This document shows positions 1,182 to 25,839 of a stretch of DNA of 26,338 bases, in pieces. A program made the position numbers and the translations under genes. How positions within the stretch are numbered: the first letter of the stretch is position 1; each line of letters opens with the position of its first letter. The stretch comes from a virus. The notes beneath the pieces are model-generated. The model made no database searches. It saw only the letters and a program-made list of their open reading frames with translations, and was not told where the DNA came from. The DNA lies in IMG/VR virus record IMGVR_UViG_3300044911_000600, positions 1 to 26,338 of that record, one strand, 5' to 3'.

Positions 1182-1357
1182 GCGAACCTACACCCTCATA
1201 TGACCATGTGGCAGAGTGTTCTAGTCTGTGCTTGCGTCCACCATGCCCGAACGAGGGGATTGTCTACGATGTTCCGTCATTGGACGGGCGTATCTCGCAG
1301 ATGATTTGCGGAACGTGCGGCGTTAACTTTACTACTAACGTTGTTCCGAAGGAGTAG
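1178..1357 (+). CDS. Small Cys-rich protein, possible zinc-binding
   Basis: A 59-residue reading frame starting with an ATG that overlaps the previous stop (ATGA). The protein has five cysteines: C14, C18 and C23 near the N-terminus, and a CGTC pair (C47, C50) near the C-terminus followed by a GVNFTTN segment. The final CxxC looks like half of a zinc ribbon. The gene is fully flanked by tail genes with a 3-base gap downstream, so it is almost certainly translated. Function is not recognised; a small metal-stabilised accessory or structural protein is possible. Confidence 0.55.
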   Translation: MSEPTPSYDHVAECSSLCLRPPCPNEGIVYDVPSLDGRISQMICGTCGVNFTTNVVPKE

Positions 1358-1360
1358 ACC

Positions 1361-1840: not shown

Positions 1841-1843
1841 CTC

Positions 1844-2173: not shown

Positions 2174-3444
2174 TGAGTATTGAGCAGATTCCTGCGCGTC
2201 AGGCGGCTGCTGGCGGTGCAGTTGTTTCATGGAATCCTGTTCCCGCTACAGGAACTTACGCCTTGCAGGATCCTCTGGACGCTGGGCTCTATCGTGTCGT
2301 AACGGATACTACGCAGAGTATCGCATCAGCAAGCGTTAAGATTCTAGGCTCATCCGGTTATCAGTTCGGTAGTATCGCTATTCGTGGTGGATTGGGTTAT
2401 GTCGCGGTCGCTGATACGGCAGCATCTTTCAGCGTTAACGCCGGAACGTTCCCTTTGCTTATCGGGTTTGAGAAGTTGGAAACATACGCGCTGCGTAGTG
2501 CCCCAACGAATGTTTCTGTCAATTACACTAGCGCATCCGCGCCCTACACGTTTACCGCGTCGTACACCGCTCCGTCTGGCGCAGCGAGTATCGGCATCTT
2601 TTGGCCTAACGGAACCTTCACGAACTACGGCGTTGCTAGCGGATCGTTCTCTGCTTCCCTTGTGGGCGTAACGCCTGTTAGCGGTTCGCCTGTGTCATTC
2701 GTCATTGCGGCTAGTGATACTAACGGAATCTTTGGTATCGGCGCTTCCGCATCTGAGCCGTTCCCGTATTATCTGTTTACGTCGTCTGGTACTTACACGC
2801 CTCCCCCTGGCAGTAGTTTCGCTGATGTGTGGGTTGCTGGCGGTGGCGGTGCTGGCGGCGGCGCGACTAGCAATTATTCGCGCGCTGGCGGTGGCGCTGC
2901 TGGCACCCTTGTCCATTCTGCGTCTGTTGCTACTAGTGCATCTGTATCCGTGACTATCGGCGCTGGTGGCACGGCGAACGCGAGCGGTAACGGTGGCACG
3001 GGCGGCGCGTCAAGTTTCGGCGGCGTATCCGCTAGTGGAGGTGTAGGCGGCGCGGTCAACGGTTCTAACGGTCTTAATGGTGAGGTAGGTAGCGGGGCGG
3101 GAGCGCCACCGAATCGCACAGGTGGCACGGCGACTATCGGTTTCGCGGGAGGTAACTCTAACTACGGTAGCGGTGGCGGCGGCGGCATGGGTGGCGCTGG
3201 CGCTAACGCAACGGGCGCATCCCCTAGTGGCACCGCCGGTGGCAGCGGATCGGTTGTTTCTGGCCTCACGATCTCTAGCGGAGGAAACGGGGCGAACAGG
3301 TGGAGTCCAACCGGGTCGCTTATCCAAGGTGGCGCTAATCCCGTCAGGGGCGGCGGCGGCGGTGGCGCGTCGAAGGGTACCGGGGCAAATGTCGCCGGAT
3401 CGAACGGCACCGATGGGATCGTTCTCGTCAAGGCATTGTTCTAG
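2173..3444 (+). CDS. Glycine-rich adhesin-like tail protein
   Basis: 423 residues. Residues about 1-110 are an unassigned beta-rich head, and about 111-195 look like an immunoglobulin/fibronectin-type beta sandwich (PTNVSVNYTSASAPYTFTAS and following). From about 200 onward is a typical glycine-rich domain: it opens with YLFTSSGTYTPPPGSSFADV, continues with long GGGG runs broken by Ala/Ser/Asn, and closes with a DGIVLVK strand. In other phages such domains form polyglycine-II sandwiches in tail-tip adhesins that bind host receptors. The fibre neighbourhood supports this. The receptor is unknown. The protein is a plausible substrate for the modification enzymes encoded downstream. Confidence 0.65.
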   Translation: MSIEQIPARQAAAGGAVVSWNPVPATGTYALQDPLDAGLYRVVTDTTQSIASASVKILGSSGYQFGSIAIRGGLGYVAVADTAASFSVNAGTFPLLIGFEKLETYALRSAPTNVSVNYTSASAPYTFTASYTAPSGAASIGIFWPNGTFTNYGVASGSFSASLVGVTPVSGSPVSFVIAASDTNGIFGIGASASEPFPYYLFTSSGTYTPPPGSSFADVWVAGGGGAGGGATSNYSRAGGGAAGTLVHSASVATSASVSVTIGAGGTANASGNGGTGGASSFGGVSASGGVGGAVNGSNGLNGEVGSGAGAPPNRTGGTATIGFAGGNSNYGSGGGGGMGGAGANATGASPSGTAGGSGSVVSGLTISSGGNGANRWSPTGSLIQGGANPVRGGGGGGASKGTGANVAGSNGTDGIVLVKALF

Positions 3445-3468
3445 TGAGTGAGTAGGTGACTATCCATT

Positions 3469-3780
3469 ATGGCTATTTATGCTATTCACGACGGTAGCAA
3501 CGTTGTTAATGTAGTCGTGGCAGATTCGTTAGAAAGCGCACAAGCCAATGCTGACGGCAATCTCCAAGTAGACGAAGTAACTGACGGCTTCGTCAGCGTA
3601 GGGTGGGAAGCGCACGACGGATACTGGCGTCCTCTTGCTACTTATCCTTCATGGGTTTGGAACGCTGATTCGCGCGAGTGGGAAGCGCCGATTCCAGAGC
3701 CGGAACCTACTGAGGAACTGCTGCATTATTGGGATGAAGATACCGTGTCGTGGGTCGCTTACGAAAGACCAGTAGGCTAA
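3469..3780 (+). CDS. Small Trp/Pro-rich fibre-associated protein
   Basis: 103 residues beginning MAIYAIHDGSNVVNVVVAD. It contains a WRPLATYPSWVWNADSREWE segment, a proline/glutamate spacer (PIPEPEPTEE), then a YWDEDTVSWV motif. Proteins with this Trp-rich pattern and acidic-proline linker recur beside fibre genes in phages of aquatic bacteria and resemble tail-fibre accessory or assembly proteins. A 24-base gap containing AGGTGA precedes the start. It is the last gene of the fibre run before the enzyme cassette. Function is inferred from context only. Confidence 0.5.
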   Translation: MAIYAIHDGSNVVNVVVADSLESAQANADGNLQVDEVTDGFVSVGWEAHDGYWRPLATYPSWVWNADSREWEAPIPEPEPTEELLHYWDEDTVSWVAYERPVG

Positions 3781-3790
3781 CTTAAGCGCC

Positions 3791-4615
3791 ATGAAGGTTC
3801 ACTTCATGGCTGGTATGCCACGTTCCGGCACGACGCTGCTTGCGTCTATTCTGAATCAGAATCCCGCCGTTTACTGTTCGCCCAATAGCCCTTTGTATGA
3901 GCATCTGCGAGATATTGACACGGCGAACTATGAGAGTTACCGCATGGGCGTGATGCAAGATTGTAAGCGCAGCCTGCTTAATGGAGCCATAGACAGTTTC
4001 TACAAACACAAAGATGCCGATGTGGTCATAGATAGGTCAAGGGTATGGGGCGTGCCCTACTACATGAGGTTGTTGCGTTATGCGCTAGGGATGAACAGCC
4101 CGAAGATACTTTGCCCGGTGCGACCATTAGCGGAAGTGGTCGCATCCTTCATCGTCAAAGCGCAGGCTAATCCCAATAACTTCATAGACCGAAGCATGAT
4201 GGAACAGGACTTTTTGCCCCTGTGGAGAAAGCCAATAAATGATGCGCGGGTGGATTGGTTGCTGAGTCCTAACAGCATGTTAGACACGGCGATACTGAGC
4301 GTGCATACGGCTCTAAGGTCTGAGGATAAGCATCTATTTCATGTGTTCTCCTATGACGATCTAGTCAGCAAGCCCGGTGGCACGATTAACGATATCTACG
4401 ATTTTCTCGGGCTTGACAGTTTCTCACATGATTACACGCGCATCGCTAACACGGAACCTTACGACGATATGAACGCGTTTGGCATCCCTGACCTTCATTT
4501 GGTGGATCACAAGATTCGCCCTAGTCAGGTGAAGCCGGAAAGTGTTCTATCGGAGTATGCGCTAGAGCGATGCGCTCTAGAAGATTTCTGGACGAGGAAA
4601 CTTGATGATAGATAA
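3791..4615 (+). CDS. Sulfotransferase family protein
   Basis: 274 residues. The N-terminus has the P-loop-like 5'-phosphosulfate-binding motif GMPRSGTTLLASIL (residues 8-21), with R11, S12, G13, T14 and T15 in the positions used to bind PAPS. IDRSRVWG (80-87) corresponds to the second conserved block, and CPVRPLAEVVASF (108-120) resembles the 3'-phosphate-binding motif, with R111 and S119. The family transfers sulfate from PAPS to hydroxyl or amino groups of carbohydrates, lipids or tyrosines. The acceptor cannot be read from sequence. The gene directly follows tail-fibre genes and overlaps a 2OG oxygenase by 11 bases. Composition is AT-richer than the head genes (27/60 G+C in row 3961-4020), suggesting separate acquisition. 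Confidence 0.8.
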   Translation: MKVHFMAGMPRSGTTLLASILNQNPAVYCSPNSPLYEHLRDIDTANYESYRMGVMQDCKRSLLNGAIDSFYKHKDADVVIDRSRVWGVPYYMRLLRYALGMNSPKILCPVRPLAEVVASFIVKAQANPNNFIDRSMMEQDFLPLWRKPINDARVDWLLSPNSMLDTAILSVHTALRSEDKHLFHVFSYDDLVSKPGGTINDIYDFLGLDSFSHDYTRIANTEPYDDMNAFGIPDLHLVDHKIRPSQVKPESVLSEYALERCALEDFWTRKLDDR

Positions 4616-5174
4616 CGACTTGTCGCTGGTGCAGCCGCTTTTAATGGCAGGCGCAATAGAAGTTTACGACAATGCGTTTGACCCGGATAGTGCGCTCTTT
4701 CGGCGTTTGATGGATAGCGAAACTTGGGAGCGTGCGAAGGTCGGAACTGACAATGTTGTATCTGAGGTACGCACTAGCAGTAACTACTTCCTGAGTTTGT
4801 CGTCGCTTTCTAACCCGGTAGATGTATTCATGTTTGGTCGCACGTTGTATGCCTACCTTAATGATTACGGTAAGCGATATGATGTTGCGTTCGCAGGCAT
4901 TGAGGATGTGTGCATTAACCGCTATGAACCGGGGCAAAGTTACCGCAAGCATAGCGATGCTGGTCCGGGCTACAATCGCGTGATCTCGGCTTTGGTTTAT
5001 CTTAACGATGTTGCATCCGGTGGCGAAACGGTATTCACGTTGTTTGATGAGGCTGTAACGCCTAGGGCTGGCAGGCTGGTTATCTTCCCGTCTAACTATG
5101 CGTATGCGCATGAGGCGCGACCCCCGGCTATGGGAATCAAGTATTCGTTAGCGGCGTGGGCGGTTTCCCTATGA
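4605..5174 (+). CDS. Prolyl-4-hydroxylase-like 2OG-Fe(II) oxygenase
   Basis: 189 residues from ATG 4605 (a TTG at 4602 is also in frame); GAGGAAA at 4594-4600 is the likely ribosome-binding site, inside the end of the sulfotransferase gene. The double-stranded beta-helix signature is clear: RYEPGQSYRKHSDAG gives the HxD pair (H116, D118), then LVYLN, GGETVF and PRAGRLVIFPS, with the distal histidine H169 and the 2-oxoglutarate-binding lysine K179 in GIKYSL. This is the P4Hc layout, whose members hydroxylate proline or other residues in proteins or small molecules using Fe(II), O2 and 2-oxoglutarate. All iron ligands are present, so it is probably active. The substrate is unknown; phage fibre protein is one candidate. 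Confidence 0.8.
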   Translation: MIDNDLSLVQPLLMAGAIEVYDNAFDPDSALFRRLMDSETWERAKVGTDNVVSEVRTSSNYFLSLSSLSNPVDVFMFGRTLYAYLNDYGKRYDVAFAGIEDVCINRYEPGQSYRKHSDAGPGYNRVISALVYLNDVASGGETVFTLFDEAVTPRAGRLVIFPSNYAYAHEARPPAMGIKYSLAAWAVSL

Positions 5175-5842
5175 GGATCGCTGTAGTCACTTCCTTGTTC
5201 GGTGCGTATGACCCGCTTTCCCCACCGCCTGCGGGATTCGATGACGCCGTGTGCGTAACGGATTCGGCAAACGGTATCCCTGACGGCTGGCGAACAGTAG
5301 CGCAAGAGGGCACGGATGATCCACGCCTAGACAGCAAGACCGCGAAGATGCAGCCGTGGCGTTACACGGACTGTGACGCGGCGATTTACCTTGACGCGAG
5401 CATCGAAGTAACTTCCCCAAATCTGCGCGCATGGGTAGAACCGCAACTAGCCGCTAATGATCTGGTTGTGTGGTCGCACCCGGAAGGTCGGACCTGTTAT
5501 CGGGATGAGGCGGCGGTCTGTTGGGACTGGCCTAAATACTCGGGGTATGACTTGCGCGGTCAGATCGCAGCGTATGAGGCAGACGGGATGCCTGCGGGTT
5601 GGGGCTTGTTCGCGTGCGGCATGATCGGCTGGCGATTCACAGACAAGGCTAAGGCGTTCGGGGACGCGTGGCTAGGGGAGCAACATAAATGGTCGTGCCA
5701 GGATCAAGTATCTTTACCTTACCTACTGTGGCGTGAGGGCAAGGCGTTCGGTATCTGGCCTGCGAACCAGTACCAGAATCCTCACATTCGGGTGAGGTGG
5801 GATCGGCGTGCCGTGGGCAACGGACCTACCGCAACACATTAG
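5171..5842 (+). CDS. DUF616-type (TOD1/MUCI70-like) glycosyltransferase-like protein
   Basis: 223 residues from ATG 5171, which overlaps the previous TGA (ATGA); an in-frame GTG at 5156 is less likely. The N-terminus MRIAVVTSLFGAYD is typical of the DUF616 glycosyltransferase-like family, followed by KTAKMQPWRYTDCDAAIYLD (residues 56-75) ending in the acidic YLDASIEV block. A second region near the C-terminus has CQDQVSLPYLLW. Family members have a GT-A-like fold; plant relatives act in cell-wall polysaccharide synthesis. Donor and acceptor are not predictable. Placement after a sulfotransferase and a P4H-like oxygenase suggests a shared modification pathway. Confidence 0.65.
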   Translation: MRIAVVTSLFGAYDPLSPPPAGFDDAVCVTDSANGIPDGWRTVAQEGTDDPRLDSKTAKMQPWRYTDCDAAIYLDASIEVTSPNLRAWVEPQLAANDLVVWSHPEGRTCYRDEAAVCWDWPKYSGYDLRGQIAAYEADGMPAGWGLFACGMIGWRFTDKAKAFGDAWLGEQHKWSCQDQVSLPYLLWREGKAFGIWPANQYQNPHIRVRWDRRAVGNGPTATH

Positions 5843-5851
5843 TGTCGGATT

Positions 5852-6022
5852 ATGGCCTACGTTTACATAGTTGCTAGCAAAGAAGATGCTTACGAGTCAG
5901 CCGTATTCTCCCGAAAGGGGGAAGCGATTGACTATGCCAAGATGATTCGGGCAGTAGCCGTGGATCAAGTGGAACTAAATAGCCCTAACTCTGAACGCGA
6001 GGTATGGAATATTAACGAATAG
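5852..6022 (+). CDS. Small hypothetical protein
   Basis: A 56-residue reading frame beginning MAYVYIVASKEDAYESAVFS and ending EVWNINE, too short for a 60-residue cutoff. A plausible alpha/beta mini-domain can be read (YVYIVA strand, EDAYESA and EAIDYAKMIR helices, then VDQVEL strand). No family is recognised. It is the last + strand gene before the opposing operon; its stop lies seven bases from the stop of the convergent - strand gene, with no terminator-like hairpin visible between them. Confidence 0.45.
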   Translation: MAYVYIVASKEDAYESAVFSRKGEAIDYAKMIRAVAVDQVELNSPNSEREVWNINE

Positions 6023-6029
6023 TCTTTAG

Positions 6030-6683
6030 TCAGCCCCACAGTAAATGGTCGGGGTGCTTATGCCCCCAATGATGCGCGCACAGGCTATCGGGGTGCGGCT
6101 TACCCCACGGCGTATCAGTCCACGGGTTGCAGTATCTAGCGGCCAGCACCGGGGTATCTGGGTACTGCTCCTCCTTTATGCGAGTGAGCAACTTGGGTCC
6201 GGTCTGCCAGTCGATAGATCGCGTCTCCGCTGCGATGTTGCCGGGGATCGCGTCGATAACGGAACGGATGAGCGGCTGCTGTGGGGCGCTTAGCATCCAA
6301 GCGTTAGAGATCAGCCAATCGTCAATCTCATTCGCGAGTAGCACATCGTAATCAAGGAACTCCTGCGGGATGGGTCGGAGTGGCTCCATGTCCGTGTTCA
6401 CGTACAGTCCGCCGAAAGAGTAGAGCAGTTCATATCCGAGCAGATCGGCTTGGGCTACCTGGATGATGCTGGCTTGCTTTGCTGCCCCAGCGATGGGCGT
6501 CCAGATATTTCCGCACTCATGAAATAGGTCTTCGTTGATGAGTTGCGGGACTGTTGCGTAGGTCCAGTCGATGAGGTGCCAATCGGGATTAAGATCGCGC
6601 CACTTCTCCCCGTACTCGACGTACTCTCTCGGCATTTCCCTCGGGCCGAACCATGCCCGGTGAATCAGTTTGGGGATCGCCAT
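6030..6683 (-). CDS. OCH1-like DXD sugar transferase
   Basis: 217 residues from the ATG at 6683 (reverse strand), chosen because it has an upstream GAGGG and gives the family-typical start MAIPKLIHRAWFG; a longer version to 6710 is possible. IPKLIHRAWFG opens the glycosyltransferase sugar-binding (DXD, PF04488) family, and QADLLGYELLYSFGGLYVNT (79-98) is its core. The metal-binding acids are D98 and E100 of NTDME. Such enzymes add mannose, galactose or related sugars to glycans. The start overlaps the end of the epimerase gene by 19 bases, making this the last gene of the - strand operon. Acceptor unknown. Confidence 0.75.
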   Translation of the reverse strand: MAIPKLIHRAWFGPREMPREYVEYGEKWRDLNPDWHLIDWTYATVPQLINEDLFHECGNIWTPIAGAAKQASIIQVAQADLLGYELLYSFGGLYVNTDMEPLRPIPQEFLDYDVLLANEIDDWLISNAWMLSAPQQPLIRSVIDAIPGNIAAETRSIDWQTGPKLLTRIKEEQYPDTPVLAARYCNPWTDTPWGKPHPDSLCAHHWGHKHPDHLLWG

Positions 6684-7681
6684 GCCACACCCTCGTTGTC
6701 TCTGTACCAATCGACCGTGCGCTTGATTCCTTCACTAAGAGGGATGAACTCTGTGTGATTCATGCCGATAGCCAACAGGGTAGTAACGTCAGCAGATACG
6801 ACGGTTCCCAACTGTCGTACGGTGCGGCGAACATCTGTAGGCCTCAGACCGGGATTGGCTCGGACCACGGCATCTTCGACGATACGGAGGTCATACTCGG
6901 TGCTGATGGGGCCACCGTGAGGCTCTCCGGCTCTCATAGGGACCGCTTCGATGATCGCCCCAGGTACGTTCCGCTGGACTTGCTCTGCGACCTTCAGGAC
7001 CGTCGTAGGCTCCGCATTGCCGACATCTACAGGATGGTCCGGGACGATGCCCTCGCTGGCCTTCTCCAATGCCTGCACGAACACGCTCGCTACATCAGTA
7101 ACAAATACGCAGTCGCTTACCTGAGTGCCGCCACCGTACAAGCGCATCGGGTCACCCGACAAGGCGGAGCATATGAATGAAGGCACGATCTTGCGTACCT
7201 TGCTGCTTCCGTACGGGGCAGGCGTCGACTGACGAGGACCGTATGCGTTCATCGGGCGCACGCTCGTTACTCTGAGGCCGCGATCTTCTCGGTACATATT
7301 CACGAACGCTTCTGCGGCTGACTTTGTAATGCAGTAGGTGCCCCGAGCGATATTTGCGTTACCTACTGCGGCGAACACGACGGGCAGATCGTAGCGGGAT
7401 GCTGATTCGAATACGTTGAGAGTGCCGATGATGTTGGTGTCTGCGGCGGGGAGAGGGTTGTCGATAGTCTCGACTGTCCCGAGGACGGCTGCCATGTGGA
7501 TGATTCCGTCTACGTGTGCAGCGAGTTCCTGAACTATGGTGGCGTCACGAACATCACCAAGCATCGAATCTGTGCCGCGACCCTTGTGGTCAAGGATGAG
7601 TGCTTCGTGGCCTCGGCGCTGTATCTCTTCAACGATGTATCCGCCGATGAAACCGTTACCTCCGGTGACTCCGATCTTCAC
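6665..7681 (-). CDS. NAD-dependent epimerase/dehydratase (extended SDR)
   Basis: 338 residues. The N-terminal nucleotide-binding loop GVTGGNGFIGG (GxxGxxG at G7, G10, G13) and the YxxxK active-site pair (Y116, K120 in GTYCITKSAAE) identify an extended short-chain dehydrogenase/reductase of the NDP-sugar epimerase/dehydratase type. VTSVRPMNAYGPRQ (about 136-150) is the usual substrate-pocket block. Members interconvert or dehydrate nucleotide sugars in the cytoplasm, supplying donors for glycosyltransferases. Its start overlaps the upstream GT2-like gene by four bases (ATGA) and its end overlaps the OCH1-like gene, so the three are probably co-translated and share a pathway. The exact sugar is not predictable. 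Confidence 0.8.
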   Translation of the reverse strand: MKIGVTGGNGFIGGYIVEEIQRRGHEALILDHKGRGTDSMLGDVRDATIVQELAAHVDGIIHMAAVLGTVETIDNPLPAADTNIIGTLNVFESASRYDLPVVFAAVGNANIARGTYCITKSAAEAFVNMYREDRGLRVTSVRPMNAYGPRQSTPAPYGSSKVRKIVPSFICSALSGDPMRLYGGGTQVSDCVFVTDVASVFVQALEKASEGIVPDHPVDVGNAEPTTVLKVAEQVQRNVPGAIIEAVPMRAGEPHGGPISTEYDLRIVEDAVVRANPGLRPTDVRRTVRQLGTVVSADVTTLLAIGMNHTEFIPLSEGIKRTVDWYRDNEGVAWRSPN

Positions 7682-8325
7682 TTCATTCCCCTCACCCTGT
7701 TCTCCCAGTACGACATATCACTACGGGAAGTTATGTTGTCATTATGGAGAACGTACTCGTAGTCGATGTTTGGGGAAGCCTGGAAACGTGCCCCGTTCTT
7801 AGCGGCATCTATCCAGAACATCCAGTCCTCGCAGATCATGTCCCGGTACCCCTGCTTCTCCCAGACAGAACGCCGGAAGGGTGACCCCGAGAAGACGAGG
7901 TTGTGCTGCGAGCGCAGGACATCCTTAGCAGTTACATGGTGTGCTGGCATCCATTGTTCCCCGACCTGTATCCCGAACATGAACACATCAGCGAGACAGT
8001 CATGAAGGCTATTGAAAGCGTGCGGAAAGATCAGATCATCCACATCCATCTTGCAGATCCACTCCGTGCTCATGGAGGAGATGCCTTCGTTCACGAGGAC
8101 TTGCGGATGCCAGCGGAATGTCCCATGCGCCTGCTTAAACGTAACACTACTCAGGTGCGCTCCACCTAGGCGAGCGATGCAGTCAGGCGGATCATCGGTA
8201 ACGACCATGATCTGGTCAGGTTGCCGTTCCAGCATCGTCATGGCACGCATCCAGCGCGGCAGGAAGGCGCGATACTTCTCCCCGTGCGCGACCGCCACCA
8301 CTCCTACAGTCACAGCGCGTACCAA
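7678..8325 (-). CDS. GT2-like (GT-A fold) glycosyltransferase
   Basis: 215 residues from a TTG at 8325 (AGGAAG two bases upstream); a GTG at 8313 overlapping the previous stop (GTGA) is an equally reasonable start, giving 211 residues. The sequence begins with a strand-loop VTVGVVAVAHGEKYRAFLP, has KMDVDDLIFP (residues 92-101) with the acidic DVDD metal site, and later ICEDWMFWIDAAKNG, which matches the ED-containing acceptor/catalytic block of family 2 transferases. Compared with full GT2 enzymes (often 230-300 residues) it is compact. It belongs to the - strand operon with an epimerase and a second transferase. The sugar is unknown. Confidence 0.65.
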   Translation of the reverse strand: MVRAVTVGVVAVAHGEKYRAFLPRWMRAMTMLERQPDQIMVVTDDPPDCIARLGGAHLSSVTFKQAHGTFRWHPQVLVNEGISSMSTEWICKMDVDDLIFPHAFNSLHDCLADVFMFGIQVGEQWMPAHHVTAKDVLRSQHNLVFSGSPFRRSVWEKQGYRDMICEDWMFWIDAAKNGARFQASPNIDYEYVLHNDNITSRSDMSYWENRVRGMK

Positions 8326-8582
8326 GTCTTCCTGTCGATGACACCGGTCACAGCGAGATCCGACGCATCCTGAAACGCACGCACCGCCTTACTGACAGCG
8401 AGATCGTAGCGGCCATCAAGGGGACCATCGTAATGACCCAGTTCCGTCAGCCTGCTCTGTGCCCACAGCACCAGCGCACCACGATCACCAGTATCTAGTG
8501 AATGGCGATACGGAAGTACCGCATCACTTTCAGATGGCGTCTCGGTTGTGTGGATACGGGCTTTACGGTTATCGCCTACCAT
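8310..8582 (-). CDS. Stand-alone peptidoglycan-binding domain protein
   Basis: 90 residues from ATG 8582; longer in-frame starts would run into the divergent + strand gene. AGGA elements lie just upstream. Residues about 29-90 form a PG_binding_1 domain: LDTGDRGALVLWAQSRLTEL, then GHYDGPLDGRYDLAVSKAV and FQDASDLAVTGVIDRKTW. No catalytic domain, signal peptide or membrane segment is visible. Such domains normally target hydrolases to the cell wall. Here it is encoded alone, opposite to and divergent from the lysis cassette and as the first gene of the glycan operon. It could be a virion wall-binding protein or a lysis accessory. Confidence 0.7.
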   Translation of the reverse strand: MVGDNRKARIHTTETPSESDAVLPYRHSLDTGDRGALVLWAQSRLTELGHYDGPLDGRYDLAVSKAVRAFQDASDLAVTGVIDRKTWYAL

Positions 8583-8642
8583 AGTCCTGTATCCTAAGGC
8601 AGTTGCGATCTTGATTGCGGGAGCGTTCCGGGAGTGTCGGTA
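8583..8642. promoter_or_regulatory. Divergent intergenic region, probable promoters
   Basis: This 60-base gap separates the - strand glycan operon (start 8582) from the + strand lysis cassette (start 8643). It is the only divergent junction in the window, so promoters for one or both directions are expected here. A TATCCT hexamer at 8590-8595 could be a + strand -10 box, but no good -35 is found at proper spacing. On the - strand, TAGGAT in the same region is an equally weak candidate. GGGAG at 8630-8634 serves as the ribosome-binding site of the + gene. Assignment rests on gene orientation more than on motifs. Confidence 0.35.
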
Positions 8643-8930
8643 ATGGGTGCAAAGCCTTCGTGGAAGTTGCGTCGCCGTGCCGTCTTTGGCTCCATGCTCT
8701 TCGGGGCAGCGATCATCGTGTATGTGGCGTTCCGCTGGGATGACACAGCACTCGCGCAAACCCTGGCTCTCTCAGGCTTCGGACTGATCGGTGCTGTGGT
8801 CGCCGCCTACATTGGTGGCGCAGCGTACGAGGACGTACGGCTCAGGCCAGACGCACAACTTTACGTTACACGCTCGGCGACCCAGGATGACTACTCGCTA
8901 GAGGCGGACGAATATCAGGAGGGGAAATGA
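8643..8930 (+). CDS. Two-helix membrane protein of the lysis cassette (holin/antiholin candidate)
   Basis: 95 residues from ATG 8643, preceded by GGGAG at eight bases; a GTG at 8634 is in frame but less well placed. A basic N-terminus (KPSWKLRRR) is followed by a membrane segment (VFGSMLFGAAIIVYVAF), a short loop RWDDTALAQT and a second membrane segment (LALSGFGLIGAVVAAYIGGA), then a polar acidic C-terminus. The gene overlaps the r1t-type holin gene by four bases. Two-helix proteins beside holins commonly act as a second holin or antiholin. That role is inferred from position and topology, as no named family was confirmed. Confidence 0.65.
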   Translation: MGAKPSWKLRRRAVFGSMLFGAAIIVYVAFRWDDTALAQTLALSGFGLIGAVVAAYIGGAAYEDVRLRPDAQLYVTRSATQDDYSLEADEYQEGK

Positions 8931-9190: not shown

Positions 9191-9490
9191 GTGAACTTTC
9201 AGGAGCAAGCCATCAGCATCGCGGCACTCATCGCAGCCGTCACAGCCATAGCAATCTTCACATACCGCGTCTACAAGATCGCTCGACGCATCGACGACAC
9301 CCTCGGGGTGGACAAGGAAGGCCGAACCATTAGCGACAGGCTTCAGCGAGTCGAGCATCAACTGTTCCCTAACGGCGGTACCAGCCTGAGCGACAAGATC
9401 ACGCGCGTCGAGAGTGAGCAGCGTGTCATGCAGGGGAAACTAGATACGGTTGAGACAATCGTGAACAGTCTACTGAGGGAGAGCAAGTGA
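9191..9490 (+). CDS. Membrane-anchored coiled-coil protein of the lysis cassette
   Basis: 99 residues from GTG 9191, with AGGAG at 9180-9184. Residues about 8-27 are one membrane helix (ISIAALIAAVTAIAIFTYRV), followed by a basic stretch and a long heptad-patterned region (RLQRVEHQLFP, NGGTSLSDKITRVESEQRVM, GKLDTVETIVNSLL). The RVEHQLFPNGGTSLSDK block recurs in small membrane proteins encoded beside actinophage endolysins, sometimes annotated DUF2746. It could be a spanin-like, antiholin or superinfection-related protein; none is shown. A GTGA overlap couples it to the endolysin gene. The 36-base gap upstream is one of the few spacers in this region. Confidence 0.6.
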   Translation: MNFQEQAISIAALIAAVTAIAIFTYRVYKIARRIDDTLGVDKEGRTISDRLQRVEHQLFPNGGTSLSDKITRVESEQRVMQGKLDTVETIVNSLLRESK

Positions 9491-10245
9491 GCGTATGGCT
9501 GAAAGATCTGAATAAAGTGCTGAAGAAAGCAGGCGTACCCGTTATCCAAGAGAAGTACACGCACGGACCGTACAGCGGGAAGACCTGGAAGACCGTGGGT
9601 TTCAACGGGCAGGGATACAGGGCCTTCGATTTCATTCTCTGGCATCACGATGCTTCGCCGCAGGGCGATTCGCCCGGTGCGCTCGAATGGATGAAATACA
9701 TGGAGATCGCCCCGGCTGGTGCTATCTGGGTCTGCTCAGGCTGTAACGGTAAGCACGCGTCTGGGACTTGGCATTTGATCGCGGCTGGCCTGTCGAATCA
9801 CGCAGGTACAGGCGGCAACGACCCGAAGCGACGCGGTAACACTTGGGGAGTGCCGGTCGATGGGATGAACGCCGTCGCCCTGGGTATCGAAACCGATCAT
9901 ACCTATGGGGAGCGCTGGACCGGGCCAAAGAAGCAAGCCCAACTGAACTCCCTGCGTCGGGGCACGGCAGCGATCATGCTCGCTTACGACCTGAACCCGA
10001 AGCCTGGACTGATGCGACATCTGGACTGGACCAACGGTCTGATCGACGGTAACGGCAAGTTCGTCACCTACGGGCGTAAGAACGACGTAGACGGCCTAGA
10101 TTTGGCTGACGAGCGTAGGCGCGTGAAGCGCATCATGGCGGCCCTGAGTGCCGCTGAGGACCCGGCAAAGGTCACTACAGAGGAAGCGATGGGCCAGCAG
10201 CCCCGAAGCCTCCTTCGTCGCCTATTCCGCCGAGCCGATGCCTAA
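9487..10245 (+). CDS. Endolysin, N-acetylmuramoyl-L-alanine amidase
   Basis: 252 residues from GTG 9487 (GTGA overlap). The amidase_2/PGRP-type fold is recognised by FILWHHDASPQGDSPGA (H53, H54), GTWHLIAAGLSNHAGTG (93-109), GIETDHTYGERWTG, MRHLDWTNG (H178) and the closing GRKNDVDGLD (D200, D202). H54, H178 and a residue of the DVDG segment are the expected zinc ligands. The enzyme cuts the bond between muramic acid and the stem peptide of peptidoglycan, releasing progeny once the holin has acted. There is no signal peptide, as expected for holin-dependent export. The C-terminal ~40 residues are basic and could be a short wall-binding tail. It lacks the extra domains of large mycobacteriophage lysins. 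Confidence 0.8.
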   Translation: MSVWLKDLNKVLKKAGVPVIQEKYTHGPYSGKTWKTVGFNGQGYRAFDFILWHHDASPQGDSPGALEWMKYMEIAPAGAIWVCSGCNGKHASGTWHLIAAGLSNHAGTGGNDPKRRGNTWGVPVDGMNAVALGIETDHTYGERWTGPKKQAQLNSLRRGTAAIMLAYDLNPKPGLMRHLDWTNGLIDGNGKFVTYGRKNDVDGLDLADERRRVKRIMAALSAAEDPAKVTTEEAMGQQPRSLLRRLFRRADA

Positions 10246-12087: not shown

Positions 12088-12234
12088 ATGAAGCAGCAGG
12101 CAGCGCTCACTCCACTTCAGGTATTTGTTGTCTCGCTTCACGAGTTATTCTTGGCGTTTCGTGAGGCGGGATTCACGGAGTCGCAGGCGATGTTCCTTAC
12201 GGCGCAGAGGATGAACGCAGATGCACGGAGATGA
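12088..12234 (+). CDS. Small helical hypothetical protein before portal
   Basis: A 48-residue reading frame (MKQQAALTPLQVFVVSLHEL start) that overlaps the portal gene by 14 bases. The sequence looks like two amphipathic helices (LQVFVVSLHELFLAFREAGF and ESQAMFLTAQRM). Short helical proteins of this kind often occupy this position in actinophage genomes without known function. The start is four bases after the WhiB-like gene's stop, and there is no obvious ribosome-binding site. Confidence 0.5.
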   Translation: MKQQAALTPLQVFVVSLHELFLAFREAGFTESQAMFLTAQRMNADARR

Positions 12235-13495
12235 CACAGGCTCAGGCCGGGACGAGTTCACTGAACTAGGGTCCTCCGGTCTGCGGCGTTCAGGCGGGAT
12301 CATCAATGAAGAGTTCCTGCCGAACCTTCAAGGCGTCAAGGGCTTCAAGGTCTACCGCGAGATGCGGGATAACGACCCCGTTGTTGGGGCGATGCTGTAC
12401 GCGATCGACAAGGTCATCACTCGACTGGAATGGAAGGTCGAGGGTGAGGACGAGCGTACGGCTGTGTTCGTTCAGGAGTGCCTGGATGACATGAGCGATT
12501 CGTGGGATGCGACATTGCAGAACATCCTGTCGATGCTTGTGTACGGCTGGTCCTTTCATGAGATCGTGTACAAGATCCGTGGCGGCTTGACTGGCGACCC
12601 GAAGACGAACTCACGCTTCAAGGACCACCGTATCGGTTGGCGGAAGTGGCCTGTCCGGGCGCAGGAAACTCTTCAGGAGTGGATGCTGGACGAGCGTGGC
12701 GGTATCCAGGGAATGGTCCAGATGGATCCTTCTGGTGGCGGTCTGCACCGTATCCCGATCGACAAGGCTGTACTGTTCCGCACGACGACTAACCGCAATA
12801 ACCCCGAGGGCTACTCGCTACTGCGTAACGCTTACCGTCCTTGGTTCTACAAGCGCAGGATTGAAGAGATCGAAGCGGTCGGTATTGAGCGTGACCTTGC
12901 TGGGCTGCCGATGGCGTTCGTGCCTCCCGAGTATCTGATGGGTTCGGCTAATGCCGCGCAGAAGGCTGTCCTTCAGGCGGTCACGGAGATCGTGCAGAAC
13001 GTGAAGCGTAACGAGCAGGAGGGGATCGTGTTCCCCGCTGCCTACGATGAGCAGGGGAACCGGGTATTTGATCTTCAGTTGCTTTCGGCTTCCGGCGCGA
13101 GGCAGTTCGATACGGGCGCGGTCATTCAGCGTTACGACCAGCGCATCAGTATGTCGCTGCTGTCGGACTTCTTACTGCTCGGTAGCGACAAGGTCGGTTC
13201 GTTCGCGCTCGGCACCGCCAAGGTGGACCTGTGGACGCTAGCGGTGGACAGTATCGCTAAGACGATCGCTGAGGTCGTGAACCAGTACGCGATCCCGCGC
13301 CTGCTGAAACTGAACGCGATGCGGACCGACAAGATGCCTGAACTCACCTACGGTCAGGTGTCGAGCGTCGAACTCAGCGAGGTCGCGGACTACGTCTCGA
13401 AGTTGATGGGTGTCGGCGCGATCCTGCCTGATCCGGGACTGGAAGGACATCTGCGTTCGCTTGGGGATCTTCCCGAGTCTGAGCCGCTACTCTGA
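12221..13495 (+). CDS. Portal protein (DUF935/Mu gp29-like)
   Basis: 424 residues. The sequence FKVYREMRDNDPVVGAMLYA (about 46-65) followed by LEWKVEGEDER and ILSMLVYGWSFHEIVYKIRG is the hallmark of DUF935-type portal proteins. Portals form the dodecameric ring at the capsid vertex through which DNA enters and leaves. The middle and C-terminal parts (YYRP-like LRNAYRPWFYKRRIEEIEAV, LLSDFLLLGSDKVGSFALG) are typical too. Length is within the normal range. The next gene is a MuF-type head protein, the usual partner. The large terminase, normally just upstream, is not found here. Confidence 0.85.
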   Translation: MHGDDTGSGRDEFTELGSSGLRRSGGIINEEFLPNLQGVKGFKVYREMRDNDPVVGAMLYAIDKVITRLEWKVEGEDERTAVFVQECLDDMSDSWDATLQNILSMLVYGWSFHEIVYKIRGGLTGDPKTNSRFKDHRIGWRKWPVRAQETLQEWMLDERGGIQGMVQMDPSGGGLHRIPIDKAVLFRTTTNRNNPEGYSLLRNAYRPWFYKRRIEEIEAVGIERDLAGLPMAFVPPEYLMGSANAAQKAVLQAVTEIVQNVKRNEQEGIVFPAAYDEQGNRVFDLQLLSASGARQFDTGAVIQRYDQRISMSLLSDFLLLGSDKVGSFALGTAKVDLWTLAVDSIAKTIAEVVNQYAIPRLLKLNAMRTDKMPELTYGQVSSVELSEVADYVSKLMGVGAILPDPGLEGHLRSLGDLPESEPLL

Positions 13496-13499
13496 TCCG

Positions 13500-15374
13500 A
13501 TGCTGCTGTTTAAGGCGTACAGGAAGTCGCCAGCGCTGACGCAGGAGACTACGCCGAGCCAGCGCAGGATCACCCGCATCCTGAGTGAAGCGCAGCAGGC
13601 GGCTGCTCGGGAGTTTGGGGAGCGGCAGCGTGAGGTCGCTGATCTTCTGTCCCGTGGTCAGGTTGATCGTGTCGTGGCGATGCTGCCGACCGAGCCTTGG
13701 TTAGTGGCACAGCAGCAGATGGCGGATGAACTCCTGGGTGAACTGCTGGACGCGGGATCACGCGTAACGCTCCCTTCTATCCAGAAGGAAACCCTGTCAT
13801 TCTCCTTTGACCGTGACCGTCCTGAGTCTGTGTCGTGGGCGCGGCAGCAGGCAGGCAGCCTCATCGCAGAGATCACAAGCGGTCAGAGGAATGTCGTCCG
13901 TGACGTCGTCGCTACCGCTGCGACTGGTGAAGCGGACTGGGGGGATGTTGCTCGTCAGGTGCAGGGATCTATCGGGCTGACGACGCAGCAGGCAGGCTGG
14001 GTGTCTAACTTCTATGAGCGTTCGTTCTCTAACGCTATCCGTGGTGGGGCGAGCAGCAGTCGGGCAGCAGCGATAGCGAGCGACCAGGCGGCTCGGTACC
14101 AGACGAGCGTGCACCGTTACCGTGCTAACACGATCGCTCGTACTGAGACGATGCGTGCCGCTAGCGAGGGCAGGATGCAGGCCTGGGGCCAGGGGCTAAC
14201 GGACGGCTTCATTTCTCCACTGTGGGAGAAGGAATGGATCGCGGAGGCTGACGGTTGCGAGATATGCCTCGGTATGAACCGCAAGAAGGTGAAGGTTAAG
14301 GAATCGTTCTCGGTGGGGGAGCCTCCGGCGCATCCGAATTGCCGCTGCGATGTGCTGCTTGTTCCGCCGAGCGTGAAGCCTCAGACCGGGGGTGGGCTTG
14401 GATTCACCGTCTCCGATGTCCTATTCAATCTTCCTATCGACGATCTGCTAGTGGCTGGCCTTCAGAATCTCCCGCTTCCGAGGGTGCCCGGCTGGGCGAC
14501 TAGGCAGACGACGCCGGAGGTGACGCGACCAGCAGAACCGCCACGCTTCCCTGAGATCAAGGACAGGCCGTCATTCGATGAGGTCATGGAGCAGGCCGAC
14601 GACATCTTTGATCGTGTCGCGGCGCAGGCGCAGAGTGAGATTACTGCGGGAAGAGAACTTGACCTAGGTGACCGTATCCTTCACGAGTTGTACAAGACGA
14701 TGGGATACGACGATTTACCTATGGTCGCGGATGAAGACGTATTTCAGAAACTCGCTGAAGGGCAAACGATTTGGATGCGCGGCCTCCGCGATAAGTTAGC
14801 CAGCGCGAACAGTCCGCGTGTATCGGCGGCGGAACTTCTGGACGCGTTGCGGTCTGGCCGGTACTACGCCGGATACGGTGTGTTCGGTAACGGCACCTAT
14901 ACCACGAACGTAGCGGGTACCGCTGTTCAGTACGGTGGTGGCGAAATAGGCAACGTTGTGCGTATTTTGCTGTCCCCTGCCGCTAGGGTAATTGAGCAGA
15001 AGCAACTATTTGACCTTTACAGCGACTTCATAGATACCCAGCCTTCCGATAACGCCAAGCGGATCGCAAGCGACCTTGGGCGCTTTGCCGCCGCGCTCGG
15101 CTACGACGCGATCAGGGTTGATGGAGCCGGTTTAGGGGCAAATGAAGATTATTTGGTGATCCTGAACCGTGGGGCTACGGTAATTGCGGGGAGCAACGGA
15201 CTGGGGCCAGGAGTGATTTCCTCACGGACGCTCATGCGAACCTGGAATGACGCCATCTCTGAGGACCCGAGCCTGCTGCAAACGTTCGACAGTATGTACA
15301 GTTACGCGATCAGCAGAGGCTTCACTTCGGTCTTGGATGGCGACAAGGTACGGGACATATCGGAATTCCTGTAG
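13500..15374 (+). CDS. MuF-type minor head protein with C-terminal ADP-ribosyltransferase-like domain
   Basis: 624 residues from ATG 13500, five bases after the portal stop (in-frame starts as early as 13410 exist). Residues about 205-288 are the phage Mu F / SPP1 gp7 head-morphogenesis domain: NTIARTETMRAASEGRMQAW, then a DGCEICLGMN block (C253, C256) and PPAHPNCRCDVLLVP (H278, C281, C283). After a Pro-rich linker (about 325-355), residues about 385-560 look like an ADP-ribosyltransferase: IWMRGLRD (R427), YYAGYGVFGNGTYTT (455-469), RILLSPAARVIE, and an ALGYDAI...NEDYLVILNRGA ending. MuF proteins are packaged inside the head, so the domain could be injected with the DNA. No EXE motif is obvious, so activity is uncertain. 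Confidence 0.75.
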   Translation: MLLFKAYRKSPALTQETTPSQRRITRILSEAQQAAAREFGERQREVADLLSRGQVDRVVAMLPTEPWLVAQQQMADELLGELLDAGSRVTLPSIQKETLSFSFDRDRPESVSWARQQAGSLIAEITSGQRNVVRDVVATAATGEADWGDVARQVQGSIGLTTQQAGWVSNFYERSFSNAIRGGASSSRAAAIASDQAARYQTSVHRYRANTIARTETMRAASEGRMQAWGQGLTDGFISPLWEKEWIAEADGCEICLGMNRKKVKVKESFSVGEPPAHPNCRCDVLLVPPSVKPQTGGGLGFTVSDVLFNLPIDDLLVAGLQNLPLPRVPGWATRQTTPEVTRPAEPPRFPEIKDRPSFDEVMEQADDIFDRVAAQAQSEITAGRELDLGDRILHELYKTMGYDDLPMVADEDVFQKLAEGQTIWMRGLRDKLASANSPRVSAAELLDALRSGRYYAGYGVFGNGTYTTNVAGTAVQYGGGEIGNVVRILLSPAARVIEQKQLFDLYSDFIDTQPSDNAKRIASDLGRFAAALGYDAIRVDGAGLGANEDYLVILNRGATVIAGSNGLGPGVISSRTLMRTWNDAISEDPSLLQTFDSMYSYAISRGFTSVLDGDKVRDISEFL

Positions 15375-15387: not shown

Positions 15388-15576
15388 GTGTCTGTAGCCA
15401 GCAATCCAGATGACTCACGCAGATTAGCGTTAGCGATGTACCGAGCCGACATGACTGGCGCGGAGCGTATTGATGCTGCTCGCGCGGCGATGCAGGCCGC
15501 GACCTGGAAAGACCTGCCACAATGGTTACGCAACATAGTCGCGGAGACAGAACGGGAACATGATGGATCTTCTTGA
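15388..15576 (+). CDS. Small helical hypothetical protein
   Basis: 62 residues from GTG 15388, with GGGGAGATGACTAG just upstream. The protein is highly charged and helical (DDSRRLALAMYRADM, ERIDAARAAMQAATW, LPQWLRNIVAETEREHD). It overlaps the next gene by 17 bases (or 14 if the second ATG is used). Its position between the MuF and XkdF genes suggests a head-assembly accessory role, but no family is recognised. Confidence 0.5.
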   Translation: MSVASNPDDSRRLALAMYRADMTGAERIDAARAAMQAATWKDLPQWLRNIVAETEREHDGSS

Positions 15577-17653
15577 TCGCGTGAACGCGCTAACGGATGA
15601 CCAGTTGCAGATGGTCGCTGAGCGCGACGATGCCTCCGGTGTCCTCGCCGCCTATCGGCTCGCTGAGTTGCGTGGCCTGCCGTACCCGGACCGGGAGACT
15701 GTGATCTTGGGTGAAGGCTATGTCATTGTGGCGCAGAACGGACAGATCCAGAAACTCCCTATCGAATCTGTCAGCAAGGTCATCCGTGAGGAGTCTGGCG
15801 AGTACTGCGTGTATTCGGAGGACGGTGCGCGCTCGTTTGGCTGCTACCCGACGATGGAGCAGGCAGAGGAGCGGCTGCGCCAGATCCACGTGTTCCGTGC
15901 TGCGCTGCGCGAGGGATCTTTCGTTTCGTGGAACTCTTCTGGCGGTCGCGCTAGGGGCCAGATCGAACACATCATGTACGAGGGAACGCTCGGCGTACCG
16001 GATAGCGACTTCTCTATCAACGCCGAGCCGGACGATCCTGCGGTACTGATCCGTATCTGGCGGCAAGGCTCCGAGGGTTGGGCAGCAACCGAGACACTCG
16101 TCGGTCACAAGATGTCTACCCTCACGAGCATTCAGTCGCTGAAGAAGGAGACGAAGCGCGAAGACGATGAGGACTTCCCTCCTGAGGCGTTCGCTTATGT
16201 GCCTGATCCTGAATCTCCTTCGACTTGGAAGTTGCGGCTATGGGACTCGATGGAAGAGAAGGTAACCGCTGCTCAGGTGGGTCGTGCGCTCGCTGCGCTG
16301 GGACCGGGTGGCTTTCGTGGGAACAGGGTTCAGATCCCAGCGGAGGATCTTCCTGCTGTGCGCCGCAAGATCCTTGCTGCATGGCGGACCGTCCATGAAG
16401 CAGACGAAGCGATCCCAGACGTACTGAAGAAGGAGACGTTCGTCCCGCCGCAGGGTGTTCAGGAAGCAGCACAGCGCGCGTTGGAATGGATCGCTGAAGG
16501 ACACGCGGGTAGCGGCTTCACGGATGTCGGTCGTGCAAGGGCAGCGCAGTTGGCTCGCGGTGACGCGGTGAGTGAGACGACTATCGGGCGTATGCGTTCG
16601 TTCCTCGCTCGGCATGGCGTGAACCGGAACAAGCCCGGATGGAACGCTGGCGATGAGGGCTTCCCTTCGGGTGGGCGTGTCGCGTGGGATGCGTGGGGTG
16701 GTGACGCTGCTGTCTCGTGGACTGAGCGCATCATGGGGCAGATCAGGGATGACGAGAAGCAGTACGAACCTGATGATGTTTTGACGTTGCGCCAGGAACT
16801 CATGTACGAGAAGTATGAGTGGATCGCGGAGATGCTTGGGCCGTGGGACGGCGGTATCAGCGGTTCGGGTGCCCACTACATCCCCGCTGCGGATAACGTG
16901 TTTGCTGAGTCCGGTATCAAGTGCGCCAACTGCGTCTTCTTCGAGGGTGGCGGCGGCTGCGAGATCCTGACGCAAATGGTTGAGCCGGAGGGTGCCTGCA
17001 AACTCTGGATCATCCCCGAGGGACAGGTGAAGGAGACTGTGAAGTCTCTGTCCCGCGATGACAGGTTCCTCCGCAAGCAGGCCGCTAACAGATTCACGCT
17101 TGGGCCTCTGTATGTGCCGGACTTCATGGACGCGCATGGCGAGTGGACTGATAGCGACGAGTTGCAGCAGGCCGTGTGGAAGTGGGTTCAGGGTGGCGAC
17201 CGCACCATCTACCTTCAGCACGATAGGAAGGTTCGGGCTGGCGAGTGGGTTGAGGTCATGACGATGCCGCAGCCTTGGACCGTCGATATGCTGAACGGGC
17301 AGGGCGAGTCGATCGGGAAGATCACCTACCCGAAGGGCACCGTCTTCCTCGGCGTTATTTGGGATGAGGGTCCCTGGCGGCAAATCCTGAACGGCGAGTT
17401 GCGCGGGTACAGCATCGGCGGATTCTCTGACCGTGTGCTTGCTGATCTCCCGGAAGAGGCTGCTCGGGACGGGATCGAACTAGAGCAGGAACCATCTTTG
17501 GCTAAGTCGATCGCTGACGCGGTTGCCGAGGCGATGAGACAATCTCAGCCAGTCGTGAATGTCGTGATGCCGGAGCCTGGTAAGGCGAAGGTCCGCAGGA
17601 TTGAACGGGACGAGCATGGCAACATCGCTCGCATTATCGAAGAGGATGAGTAA
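15560..17653 (+). CDS. XkdF-type prohead protease within a large multidomain protein
   Basis: 697 residues, starting ATG ATG. Domains in order: an N-terminal region with a CYPTMEQAEERLRQIHVF motif (95-112); a DUF2945/TUDOR-like block from SFVSWNSSGGRARGQIEHIM (120-139) to about 187; DFPPEAFAYVPDPESPSTWK (205-224) with a DUF6582-type follow-up to about 275; an ARAAQLARGDAVSETTIGRM (326-345) block with GGRVAWDAWGGDA; a four-cysteine patch (C455, C458, C467, C480); and the C-terminal XkdF domain (about 500-625) with RFTLGPLYVPDFMDAHGEW, IYLQHDRKV (H554) and GELRGYSIGGF (S618). XkdF belongs to the assemblin-like serine proteases that mature the capsid; H554 and S618 are the likely catalytic pair. 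Many XkdF proteins are far shorter, so the extra domains are unusual. Confidence 0.75.
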   Translation: MMDLLDRVNALTDDQLQMVAERDDASGVLAAYRLAELRGLPYPDRETVILGEGYVIVAQNGQIQKLPIESVSKVIREESGEYCVYSEDGARSFGCYPTMEQAEERLRQIHVFRAALREGSFVSWNSSGGRARGQIEHIMYEGTLGVPDSDFSINAEPDDPAVLIRIWRQGSEGWAATETLVGHKMSTLTSIQSLKKETKREDDEDFPPEAFAYVPDPESPSTWKLRLWDSMEEKVTAAQVGRALAALGPGGFRGNRVQIPAEDLPAVRRKILAAWRTVHEADEAIPDVLKKETFVPPQGVQEAAQRALEWIAEGHAGSGFTDVGRARAAQLARGDAVSETTIGRMRSFLARHGVNRNKPGWNAGDEGFPSGGRVAWDAWGGDAAVSWTERIMGQIRDDEKQYEPDDVLTLRQELMYEKYEWIAEMLGPWDGGISGSGAHYIPAADNVFAESGIKCANCVFFEGGGGCEILTQMVEPEGACKLWIIPEGQVKETVKSLSRDDRFLRKQAANRFTLGPLYVPDFMDAHGEWTDSDELQQAVWKWVQGGDRTIYLQHDRKVRAGEWVEVMTMPQPWTVDMLNGQGESIGKITYPKGTVFLGVIWDEGPWRQILNGELRGYSIGGFSDRVLADLPEEAARDGIELEQEPSLAKSIADAVAEAMRQSQPVVNVVMPEPGKAKVRRIERDEHGNIARIIEEDE

Positions 17654-24651: not shown

Positions 24652-24797
24652 TCTGCCCATCGTGCAAACTAGGGGGGGAACTGAACCGAGAGGGCAACCC
24701 GGATACAGCGGCGAAGTACCACCGCAAATGTCAATGGCCTAATGGCGGGTGCTTCTGCCAGCACGCGGTAGGCGATAACGGATATGTCCGATCTTAG
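24648..24797 (+). CDS. Small Cys-rich zinc-finger-like protein
   Basis: A 49-residue reading frame with a GTG start (GTGA overlap) and a 14-base overlap with the next gene. CPSCKLGGELN (C3, C6) opens the protein and CQWPNGGCFCQH (C32, C39, C41, H43) follows, giving a possible treble-clef or zinc-ribbon site. No family is recognised. Coupling on both sides makes translation likely. Two other tiny Cys-rich genes lie at 1178-1357 and 23063-23200. Confidence 0.5.
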   Translation: MICPSCKLGGELNREGNPDTAAKYHRKCQWPNGGCFCQHAVGDNGYVRS

Positions 24798-25839
24798 TAT
24801 CGCGTTCATCAGCGGCGACTGGAATAACCAGGTCGATCCGCCAGAGCCGAACGGATGCGCTTACTACCGTCAGGTGTTGCCTTGCCAACTGATGCAGGAG
24901 CAGGGCTACGACACGCTAGTTGGGCAGCCGAGACCGCACGACACTATGGGTATCGGCTTAGCGAAAGATGACGGTGCGCTATTCGGCTTCGACATAAACA
25001 TCTTCAAACTAATGATGCACGCTTCTGTCCCTCAACTGTTTCACACAATGCAGTCCGAGGGGCAGATTGTCGCTATCGACATCGACGACTTCCACTTCGA
25101 TCTGCACACTGAGAACATCGCGCACTCCGCGACGAATCCGCACACCAACCCCACAAATAACCGCATGTGGTACGAGGTTGGTATACGTCAGGCGGATTTC
25201 ATCACCGTATCTACTGCTTTCCTCGCAGACTTCTACGGGCGACGCTGCCGCGATGTGCGCCTAGTGCGTAATGCGGTAGAGACTGAGCGCTTCACACCTG
25301 TCGAGCAGCCGGAGACGCCGACGTTTGGATGGCTTGGCGGCACACTTTGGCGGTCCGGCGACATCGAACTTCTGCGCGACTGGCTGCCAGGATTCGTGAA
25401 GCAGCACAACGTCCCTGTTTCTCATTCTGGGCACATCCCCGGCGACCCCCGGCACTTCGCCGTGCGCGCAGGACTGAAGCGCGTCGAGACCACCCCTATG
25501 CGAACGATCAGTAACGTTCCAAAGATGATGAATTTTAACGTCGGGCTGGTCCCGCTCGCCCGTAACGGATTCAATGAGGCGAAGAGTTACTTGAAGGGCT
25601 TGGAGTATGCGGCGGCTGGGATCCCGTTCATCGCCACCCCGACAGAGGAATACAGGTTCTTAGAAGCCGCAGGAGTTGGCAGGCTGGCCTCTTCCCCTGA
25701 CGAGTGGATTGACCACGCTACGGCGCTCCTAGACCCGTCTACGCGCATCGCAGAGGCCGAGCGCAACCGCGCCATCGTGAGGCAGAGGTTTGACATCTCA
25801 GGGATGGGGGAGGAATGGGCTACCGCGATTACTTCTTAA
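24784..25839 (+). CDS. GT4-like (GT-B fold) glycosyltransferase
   Basis: 351 residues. NGCAYYRQVLPCQLMQEQGY (23-42) is the usual opening of GT-B glycosyltransferases that act on phage or host surface glycans; AIDIDDFHFD and ITVSTAFLADFYG belong to the N-terminal domain, and VRLVRNAVETERF starts the linker. GWLGGTLWRSGD and the donor-site block NEAKSYLKGLEYAAAGIPFI near the C-terminus match family 1/4, with the E-x7-E-like acids. The donor sugar is probably UDP- or GDP-linked. It overlaps both neighbours and sits with a methyltransferase-like gene, suggesting a second modification cassette. Confidence 0.75.
   Translation: MSDLSIAFISGDWNNQVDPPEPNGCAYYRQVLPCQLMQEQGYDTLVGQPRPHDTMGIGLAKDDGALFGFDINIFKLMMHASVPQLFHTMQSEGQIVAIDIDDFHFDLHTENIAHSATNPHTNPTNNRMWYEVGIRQADFITVSTAFLADFYGRRCRDVRLVRNAVETERFTPVEQPETPTFGWLGGTLWRSGDIELLRDWLPGFVKQHNVPVSHSGHIPGDPRHFAVRAGLKRVETTPMRTISNVPKMMNFNVGLVPLARNGFNEAKSYLKGLEYAAAGIPFIATPTEEYRFLEAAGVGRLASSPDEWIDHATALLDPSTRIAEAERNRAIVRQRFDISGMGEEWATAITS

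Follow-up and report, generated by a model that had tools for sequence, protein, structure and literature searches.

The window analyzed here, IMGVR_UViG_3300044911_000600, is a 26,338-base viral fragment from IMG/VR with the gene order portal, MuF, XkdF-type protease, and major capsid. Its MuF gene encodes a head protein with an ADP-ribosyltransferase (ART)-like C-terminal domain and is followed by a small gene; these and the adjoining features described below lie on the + strand. The MuF open reading frame (ORF) ends at 15374 and starts at either GTG 13410 or ATG 13500; the latter, just 3′ of the end of the portal gene (12221–13495; PF06074, E = 3.9e-36), is the likely start and gives a product of 624 amino acids (aa), from which residues are numbered here. 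The constant, delivery-type half (residues 1–347; 13500–14540) contains PF04233 Phage_Mu_F (residues 178–285; E = 2.2e-10, above the Pfam cut-off), matches PHROG families for head morphogenesis and maturation (down to E = 4.7e-35), and carries a PPAHPNCRCD motif common to close relatives. A linker or junction region (14385–14570) leads to the predicted ART-fold effector domain and C-terminal tail (residues 358–624; 14571–15374), after which come the gene for a 62-aa partner, a predicted immunity protein (15388–15576), and the gene for the XkdF-type capsid protease (15560–17653; PF14550, E = 3e-13). The C-terminal segment probably serves as the effector in a polymorphic toxin of the MuF type, forming an effector–immunity cassette with the 62-aa product as its neutralizing partner.

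The C-terminal domain is confidently predicted to have an ART fold

An earlier note, drawn from the letters of the window, had proposed that the MuF protein ends in an ADP-ribosyltransferase-like domain. The AlphaFold2 model, built from an alignment of 66 domain members, agrees with this proposal: it has a mean predicted local distance difference test score (pLDDT) of 93.7 and a predicted template modeling score of 0.89, and all 50 matches listed by Foldseek against the PDB belong to the ART superfamily (diphtheria toxin-, ExoA- and cholix-like catalytic domains, and PARPs), the best at E = 0.016 and none at E = 0.001. VIA-align again returned ART-superfamily matches (Z ≤ 7.1) and added ParT, a RES-type protein, and a cyanophage A4 pre-ejectosome protein. 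The latter is the top VIA match (Z 7.1; PDB 9k3a chain B, from the solved pre-ejectosome), a hint that ejected proteins may include an ART-fold domain. In the comparison with viral models, phage proteins bearing the name ART-PolyVal reached E = 6e-5. On the basis of the model, the domain can thus be assigned to the ART fold with confidence.

Direct sequence look-ups of the domain in Pfam, NCBIfam, and PDB gave no match at a useful level. Individual family members hit ART-PolyVal, PARP, and DUF3990 below the Pfam threshold; the window domain itself did not match ART-PolyVal (PF18760), which 4 of the 66 members reached sub-threshold only (best, 0.0047), and the domain had no above-cut-off Pfam match to ADPrib_exo_Tox (PF03496; Alt/VIP2). 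In hhalign, H-G and G-x-G-x-W blocks of ART-PolyVal paired with R427-G and GNGTY of the window family; the ART-PolyVal profile was a single sequence, relatives being too few, and the probability was low, so that this pairing is supportive only.

The motifs cited in the earlier note, R427, the GYGVFGNGTYTT block (458–469), ALGYDAI (532–538), and DYLVILNRG (550–558), are all where it had placed them. Arg427 (14778–14780) occupies motif 1, the His position of H-Y-E type ARTs, and is Arg in 65/66 members of the alignment. The GxGxFGNGTY block (458–467; 14871–14900) contains the motif-2 residue Tyr467 (65/66), together with Gly463 and Gly465 (66/66 each) and Asn464 (63/66). Leu555-Asn556-Arg557 (15162–15170) forms a family signature (64/66, 65/66, and 66/66, respectively), and the GNG block, Asp525, and Gly534-Tyr-Asp536 are near-invariant too. 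The usual position of the third catalytic acid is occupied by Glu549-Asp550 (15144–15149); it is acidic here and variable in the family. The NAD-binding residues to which the note had tied its proposal are thus present as far as the motif-1 Arg and the motif-2 Tyr are concerned, and the non-conserved third-motif Glu is a correction to it. Since Arg and Tyr are kept and the third acid is not, the domain likely has a pocket for nicotinamide adenine dinucleotide (NAD), and both transferase activity and plain NAD cleavage are possible. RES-type NAD phosphorylases have R-Y-N motifs (PMC9503650). The published ART-PolyVal active site is H-Y-D (PMC5512222), a signature from which the window family departs by having Arg instead of His.

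A small partner gene adjoins the ART gene

The earlier note had left out the small gene at 15388–15576, which belongs to the cassette. Its product was modeled as a three-helix bundle (pLDDT 92.3; helices at 7–19, 24–36, and 45–61). Members of the partner family typically begin with M-x-P-[DE]-x-S-R-R-x-A and have a D-L-P motif further on; no family was matched in Pfam or PHROG, and a fold search with the 62-aa protein found nothing below E 5. A hidden Markov model (HMM) built from five seed members and iterated over the 12,000 ORFs of 178 loci until converged gave 79 matches in 78 loci, and none in the 66 loci (34 clusters) without the window ART family. In the large majority of matches the partner starts at or just past the ART stop, the two frames often overlapping by 4 bases (ATGA), and it adjoins the ART gene in 39 of 77 non-redundant ART clusters. 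At least one partner escaped the HMM, that of Paractinoplanes, which forms the N-terminal 60 residues of a longer frame immediately 3′ of the ART stop.

The partner is tightly linked to the ART domain. MuF genes without a C-terminal domain (L019 and L031, in our numbering of the related loci) have no small ORF at the 3′ side of the slot, and other effector types in the slot have other small genes; conversely, the partner also follows ART genes without a recognized MuF motif (L094, 357 aa; L096, 1682 aa). Among 36 Bacillus-family and 299 Paractinoplanes-order genomes, strong partner matches occur only beside ART, and in two bacterial genomes the sole strong match adjoins an ART gene. No convincing orphan partner gene was found in the ∼335 bacterial genomes, three weak partial matches inside long frames having been discounted. 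The small gene thus probably encodes the antidote of the ART effector, as judged from gene linkage. Calling the 62-aa product an immunity protein is predictive, and the data would also suit a chaperone or a protein that keeps the enzyme from acting prematurely.

The C-terminal domain is exchanged among MuF relatives

MuF relatives 43–84% identical to the window MuF have variable content after PPAHPNCRCD, a divergent ART among it. The slot holds the window ART family in L003, L009, L011, L013, L017, and L032, a VIP2-type ART in L014 (PF03496, E = 1.3e-11), a zeta toxin in L020 (PF06414) and similarly in L027, a RelA/SpoT-like domain in L025 (weak), a GNAT-like, that is, acetyltransferase-like, domain in L010 (weak), and a long multi-domain tail in L029; in L019, it is empty. 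The polymorphic-toxin-like variability for which the earlier note had proposed to look is there, the segment not being common to all homologous MuF proteins.

The exchange can be followed at the DNA level. Homology of the window to L010, L011, L013, and L032 stops at 14,380–14,384, and for L010, L011, and L013 it returns between 15,462 and 15,563. In L010 and L032, the DNA on the two sides of the slot is 88% and 91% identical, but the similarity is broken over the C-terminal domain and the small ORF, the domain being acetyltransferase-like in the former and the ART in the latter. For L017 and L021, a stretch of 5.9 kb is 96% identical up to the break, beyond which one has the ART and the other a zeta toxin. 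In both pairs, and likewise between L017 and L020, homology returns at the end of the small ORF. The comparison with L003 locates a mosaic breakpoint at ∼14,530–14,560: DNA identity is 78% to its left (659/840) and 99.4% to its right (809/814; Fisher p = 1e-50), these values standing for the MuF half and the ART part, and in the region of the partner gene it is 100%. As the MuF halves of the window, L003, and L009 are about equally distant from each other, either side may have moved. Separability and exchangeability of the C-terminal domain are strongly supported by these sequence comparisons, and the effector domain and partner gene are probably inherited and traded as one two-gene cassette.

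These breakpoints also bear on the boundary of the module. The earlier note had let the ART domain begin at 14640; the module is there, but according to the mosaic breakpoint its boundary lies slightly upstream, and it reaches past the MuF stop at 15374 to ∼15,576, including the small ORF. The note's hand counts of G+C (39/60, 28/60, and 31/60) were all exact on recount, and the compositional break from which it had argued for a later addition is real. It is mild, however, and weak evidence: G+C is 61.6% in the MuF part, 55.5% in the ART part (17th percentile of windows of the same size), and 57.4% on average in the window, and a contrast of this size is reached at 8.7% of window positions. 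It is the G+C-rich MuF part that is the odder half, the ART part being nearer to the mean. The break was therefore set aside as proof of late acquisition in favor of the mosaic evidence.

Other occupants of the slot have small neighbors of their own. The zeta toxins of L020 (1660–2774) and L027 (5844–6948) are followed by mutually homologous small ORFs (38% over 58 aa, E = 5e-11), likely a zeta-specific partner family, and the GNAT-like domain of L010 (1573–2993) has its own ∼80-aa ORF directly after it.

Relation to known MuF toxins and phage ARTs

MuF polymorphic toxins share an N-terminal MuF domain, a variable C-terminal toxin (ART, RelA-like, and others), and a small ORF right after; in the survey of Jamet et al. 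2017 (PMC5576092), a small ORF was next in 89.4% of 191, 14% were putative ARTs, and the toxins were reported from temperate phages only. The window and its relatives likewise have a MuF domain, a variable C-terminal domain, and an adjoining small ORF matched to the toxin type, but the window ART lies outside the named Pfam and NCBIfam families, its partner family has no name, and five long relatives, possibly fragments, yielded no integrase. The closest experimentally tested analogue is Bxa of a Bacteroides stercoris prophage, an antibacterial MuF–ART that kills unless adjacent small immunity proteins are present (PMC11699363). Bxa, an arginine-modifying enzyme, is paired with two immunity proteins, the ADP-ribosyl hydrolase BAH and the binder Bsi, whereas the window cassette has one 62-aa gene. 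Apk2 MuF toxins, as described in PMC11699363, are also MuF fusions neutralized by partner genes, but they make (p)ppApp and are not ARTs.

ARTs fused to MuF as such have already been described. Alt/VIP2-type ARTs (PF03496) in the Microbacterium phages Percival and Goodman (PMC7302621) occupy the same slot and belong to the same fold superfamily, but have an R-S-E active site and form a family separate from the window ART. ART-PolyVal (PF18760; Iyer et al. 2017, PMC5512222) is likewise a phage effector ART with a GxGxY-type motif 2; its motif 1 has His and its motif 3 Asp, in contrast to Arg and a variable residue in the window family. Fusion to MuF is also stated for N4-like ARTs of the H-Y-[EDQ] clade (PMC9503650), and the window family, one member of which matches a PHROG named polymerase, could belong to this N4-like family. 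New is an ART family with Arg and Tyr and a non-conserved third acid, with its own partner family and clean cassette exchange; neither family has a functional name in Pfam, NCBIfam, or PHROGs.

Proposed function of the cassette

Fold, motifs, slot polymorphism, cassette swaps, breakpoint, and partner–ART linkage are the reasons for counting the segment among MuF polymorphic toxins. The protein would owe its place in the phage head to the constant MuF half, and the ART-fold half would be an NAD-dependent enzyme that enters the cytoplasm of the next host with the genome and there modifies a host target or consumes NAD. Such delivery, which the earlier note had suggested, is consistent with the MuF fusion and with the published MuF toxins. 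The three-helix protein would neutralize the enzyme in the cell that builds the virions, and effector domain and partner gene would be passed on and exchanged as a single cassette. Several observations speak against this reading. In roughly half of the ART clusters, among them most of the cellular Nocardia copies and the tandem arrays, no adjoining partner is recognizable; the third ART acid is not conserved, the four-residue stretch having Glu in 40/85 and Glu or Asp in 60/85 members; and the fold matches are individually weak (E = 0.016; Z ≤ 7.1), so that the case for an ART lies in their uniformity.

The variable third acid, despite conserved Arg and Tyr, would also suit an ART-fold NADase or NAD phosphorylase that kills or arrests by destroying NAD and is not an ADP-ribosyltransferase. 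ART-fold enzymes of this kind with altered motifs are known (the RES and Ntox40 families; PMC9503650), and ParT is among the VIA fold matches, but Glu549-Asp550 of the window copy lies roughly where the acid is expected, and for ART-PolyVal (H-Y-D) protein modification is predicted (PMC5512222); this alternative deserves to be kept in mind, if only tentatively. Somewhat less probable still is an early takeover in the manner of T4 Alt, an injected, head-packaged ART (PMC5512222; PMC9503650), in which the injected enzyme would modify host proteins on behalf of the phage and the small protein would be a chaperone, a timing inhibitor, or a loader into the head before lysis. MuF–VIP2 fusions occur in Microbacterium phages without temperate features (PMC7302621), and neither tyrosine integrases (PF00589) nor serine recombinases (PF00239) were found in five 50–54 kb relatives, so that the phages carrying the cassette may be lytic; these relatives may be fragments, however, and the missing integrase is thus no proof of a lytic lifestyle. 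Moreover, domains of the zeta-toxin or RelA/SpoT-like kind can replace the ART, and as each comes with a small ORF of its own, the exchange looks more like one of toxin–immunity pairs than like a single takeover function. That the domain is an inactive structural appendage of the head protein, as described for the C-terminal domain of the phage Mu MuF protein (PMC5512222), would explain the variable third motif. It is improbable, given that Arg427, Tyr467, Asn556, and Arg557 are near-invariant across members only ∼30% identical, that the slot of close relatives holds other enzymes or nothing, and that such an appendage would leave a dedicated partner gene without a ready explanation. More improbable still is that the small ORF, despite its location in the structural operon, is a plain head gene found between MuF and protease by chance, since ART-less MuF relatives with the same flanking genes lack it, it follows ART genes without a recognized MuF motif, and it is exchanged jointly with the C-terminal domain.

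MuF toxins are known mainly from a few prophage cases. The pairs L017/L021 and L010/L032 are natural near-isogenic pairs that differ in effector and partner; with these, a small ART with mutable residues, and a 62-aa candidate antidote, the function of a head effector and the choice between immunity protein and chaperone become directly testable.

Distribution of the ART family and further observations

A broader proposal is about as likely as not: that the family represents a widespread, unnamed Arg-Tyr type of ART-fold effectors in phage heads, mostly metagenomic, with dedicated three-helix immunity proteins of 50–80 aa, and that effector and immunity protein change hands as one cassette of two genes, even between phages apparently without integration genes. 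In the isolated-phage collection, the ART was found only in the Gordonia phages GodonK and Phendrix (in a 1479-aa protein) and in cyanophage PSS2; the partner is not recognizable in PSS2 and weakly suggested in GodonK (E = 0.016). By their MuF proteins, the nearest isolated phages are Arthrobacter phages (30–40% identity), the match being confined to the MuF half.

Several copies of the ART can occur together. The phage contig IMGVR_UViG_3300043625_000003 (L095) has six tandem ART ORFs of the window family (1118–8101), with a partner gene ahead of the array (709–918) and none recognized between the copies. A 327 kb jumbo phage contig, IMGVR_UViG_3300028800_000001 (L127 and L109), has five ARTs in one stretch, two of them with a partner, and a further copy elsewhere. 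In Nocardia cyriacigeorgica (L173, L174, and L185; the last on contig C82 of genome G011, 54877–55422), the ART domain is inside a very large protein, the open frame being reported as 20,955 codons.

Elsewhere in the window, two endolysin-like genes lie close to each other on opposite strands (8310–8759, −; 9487–10245, +), glycosyltransferase-like genes flank the structural block on both sides (5156–5842 and 24784–25839), and there is a 2OG-Fe(II)-oxygenase-like match at 4602–5174.
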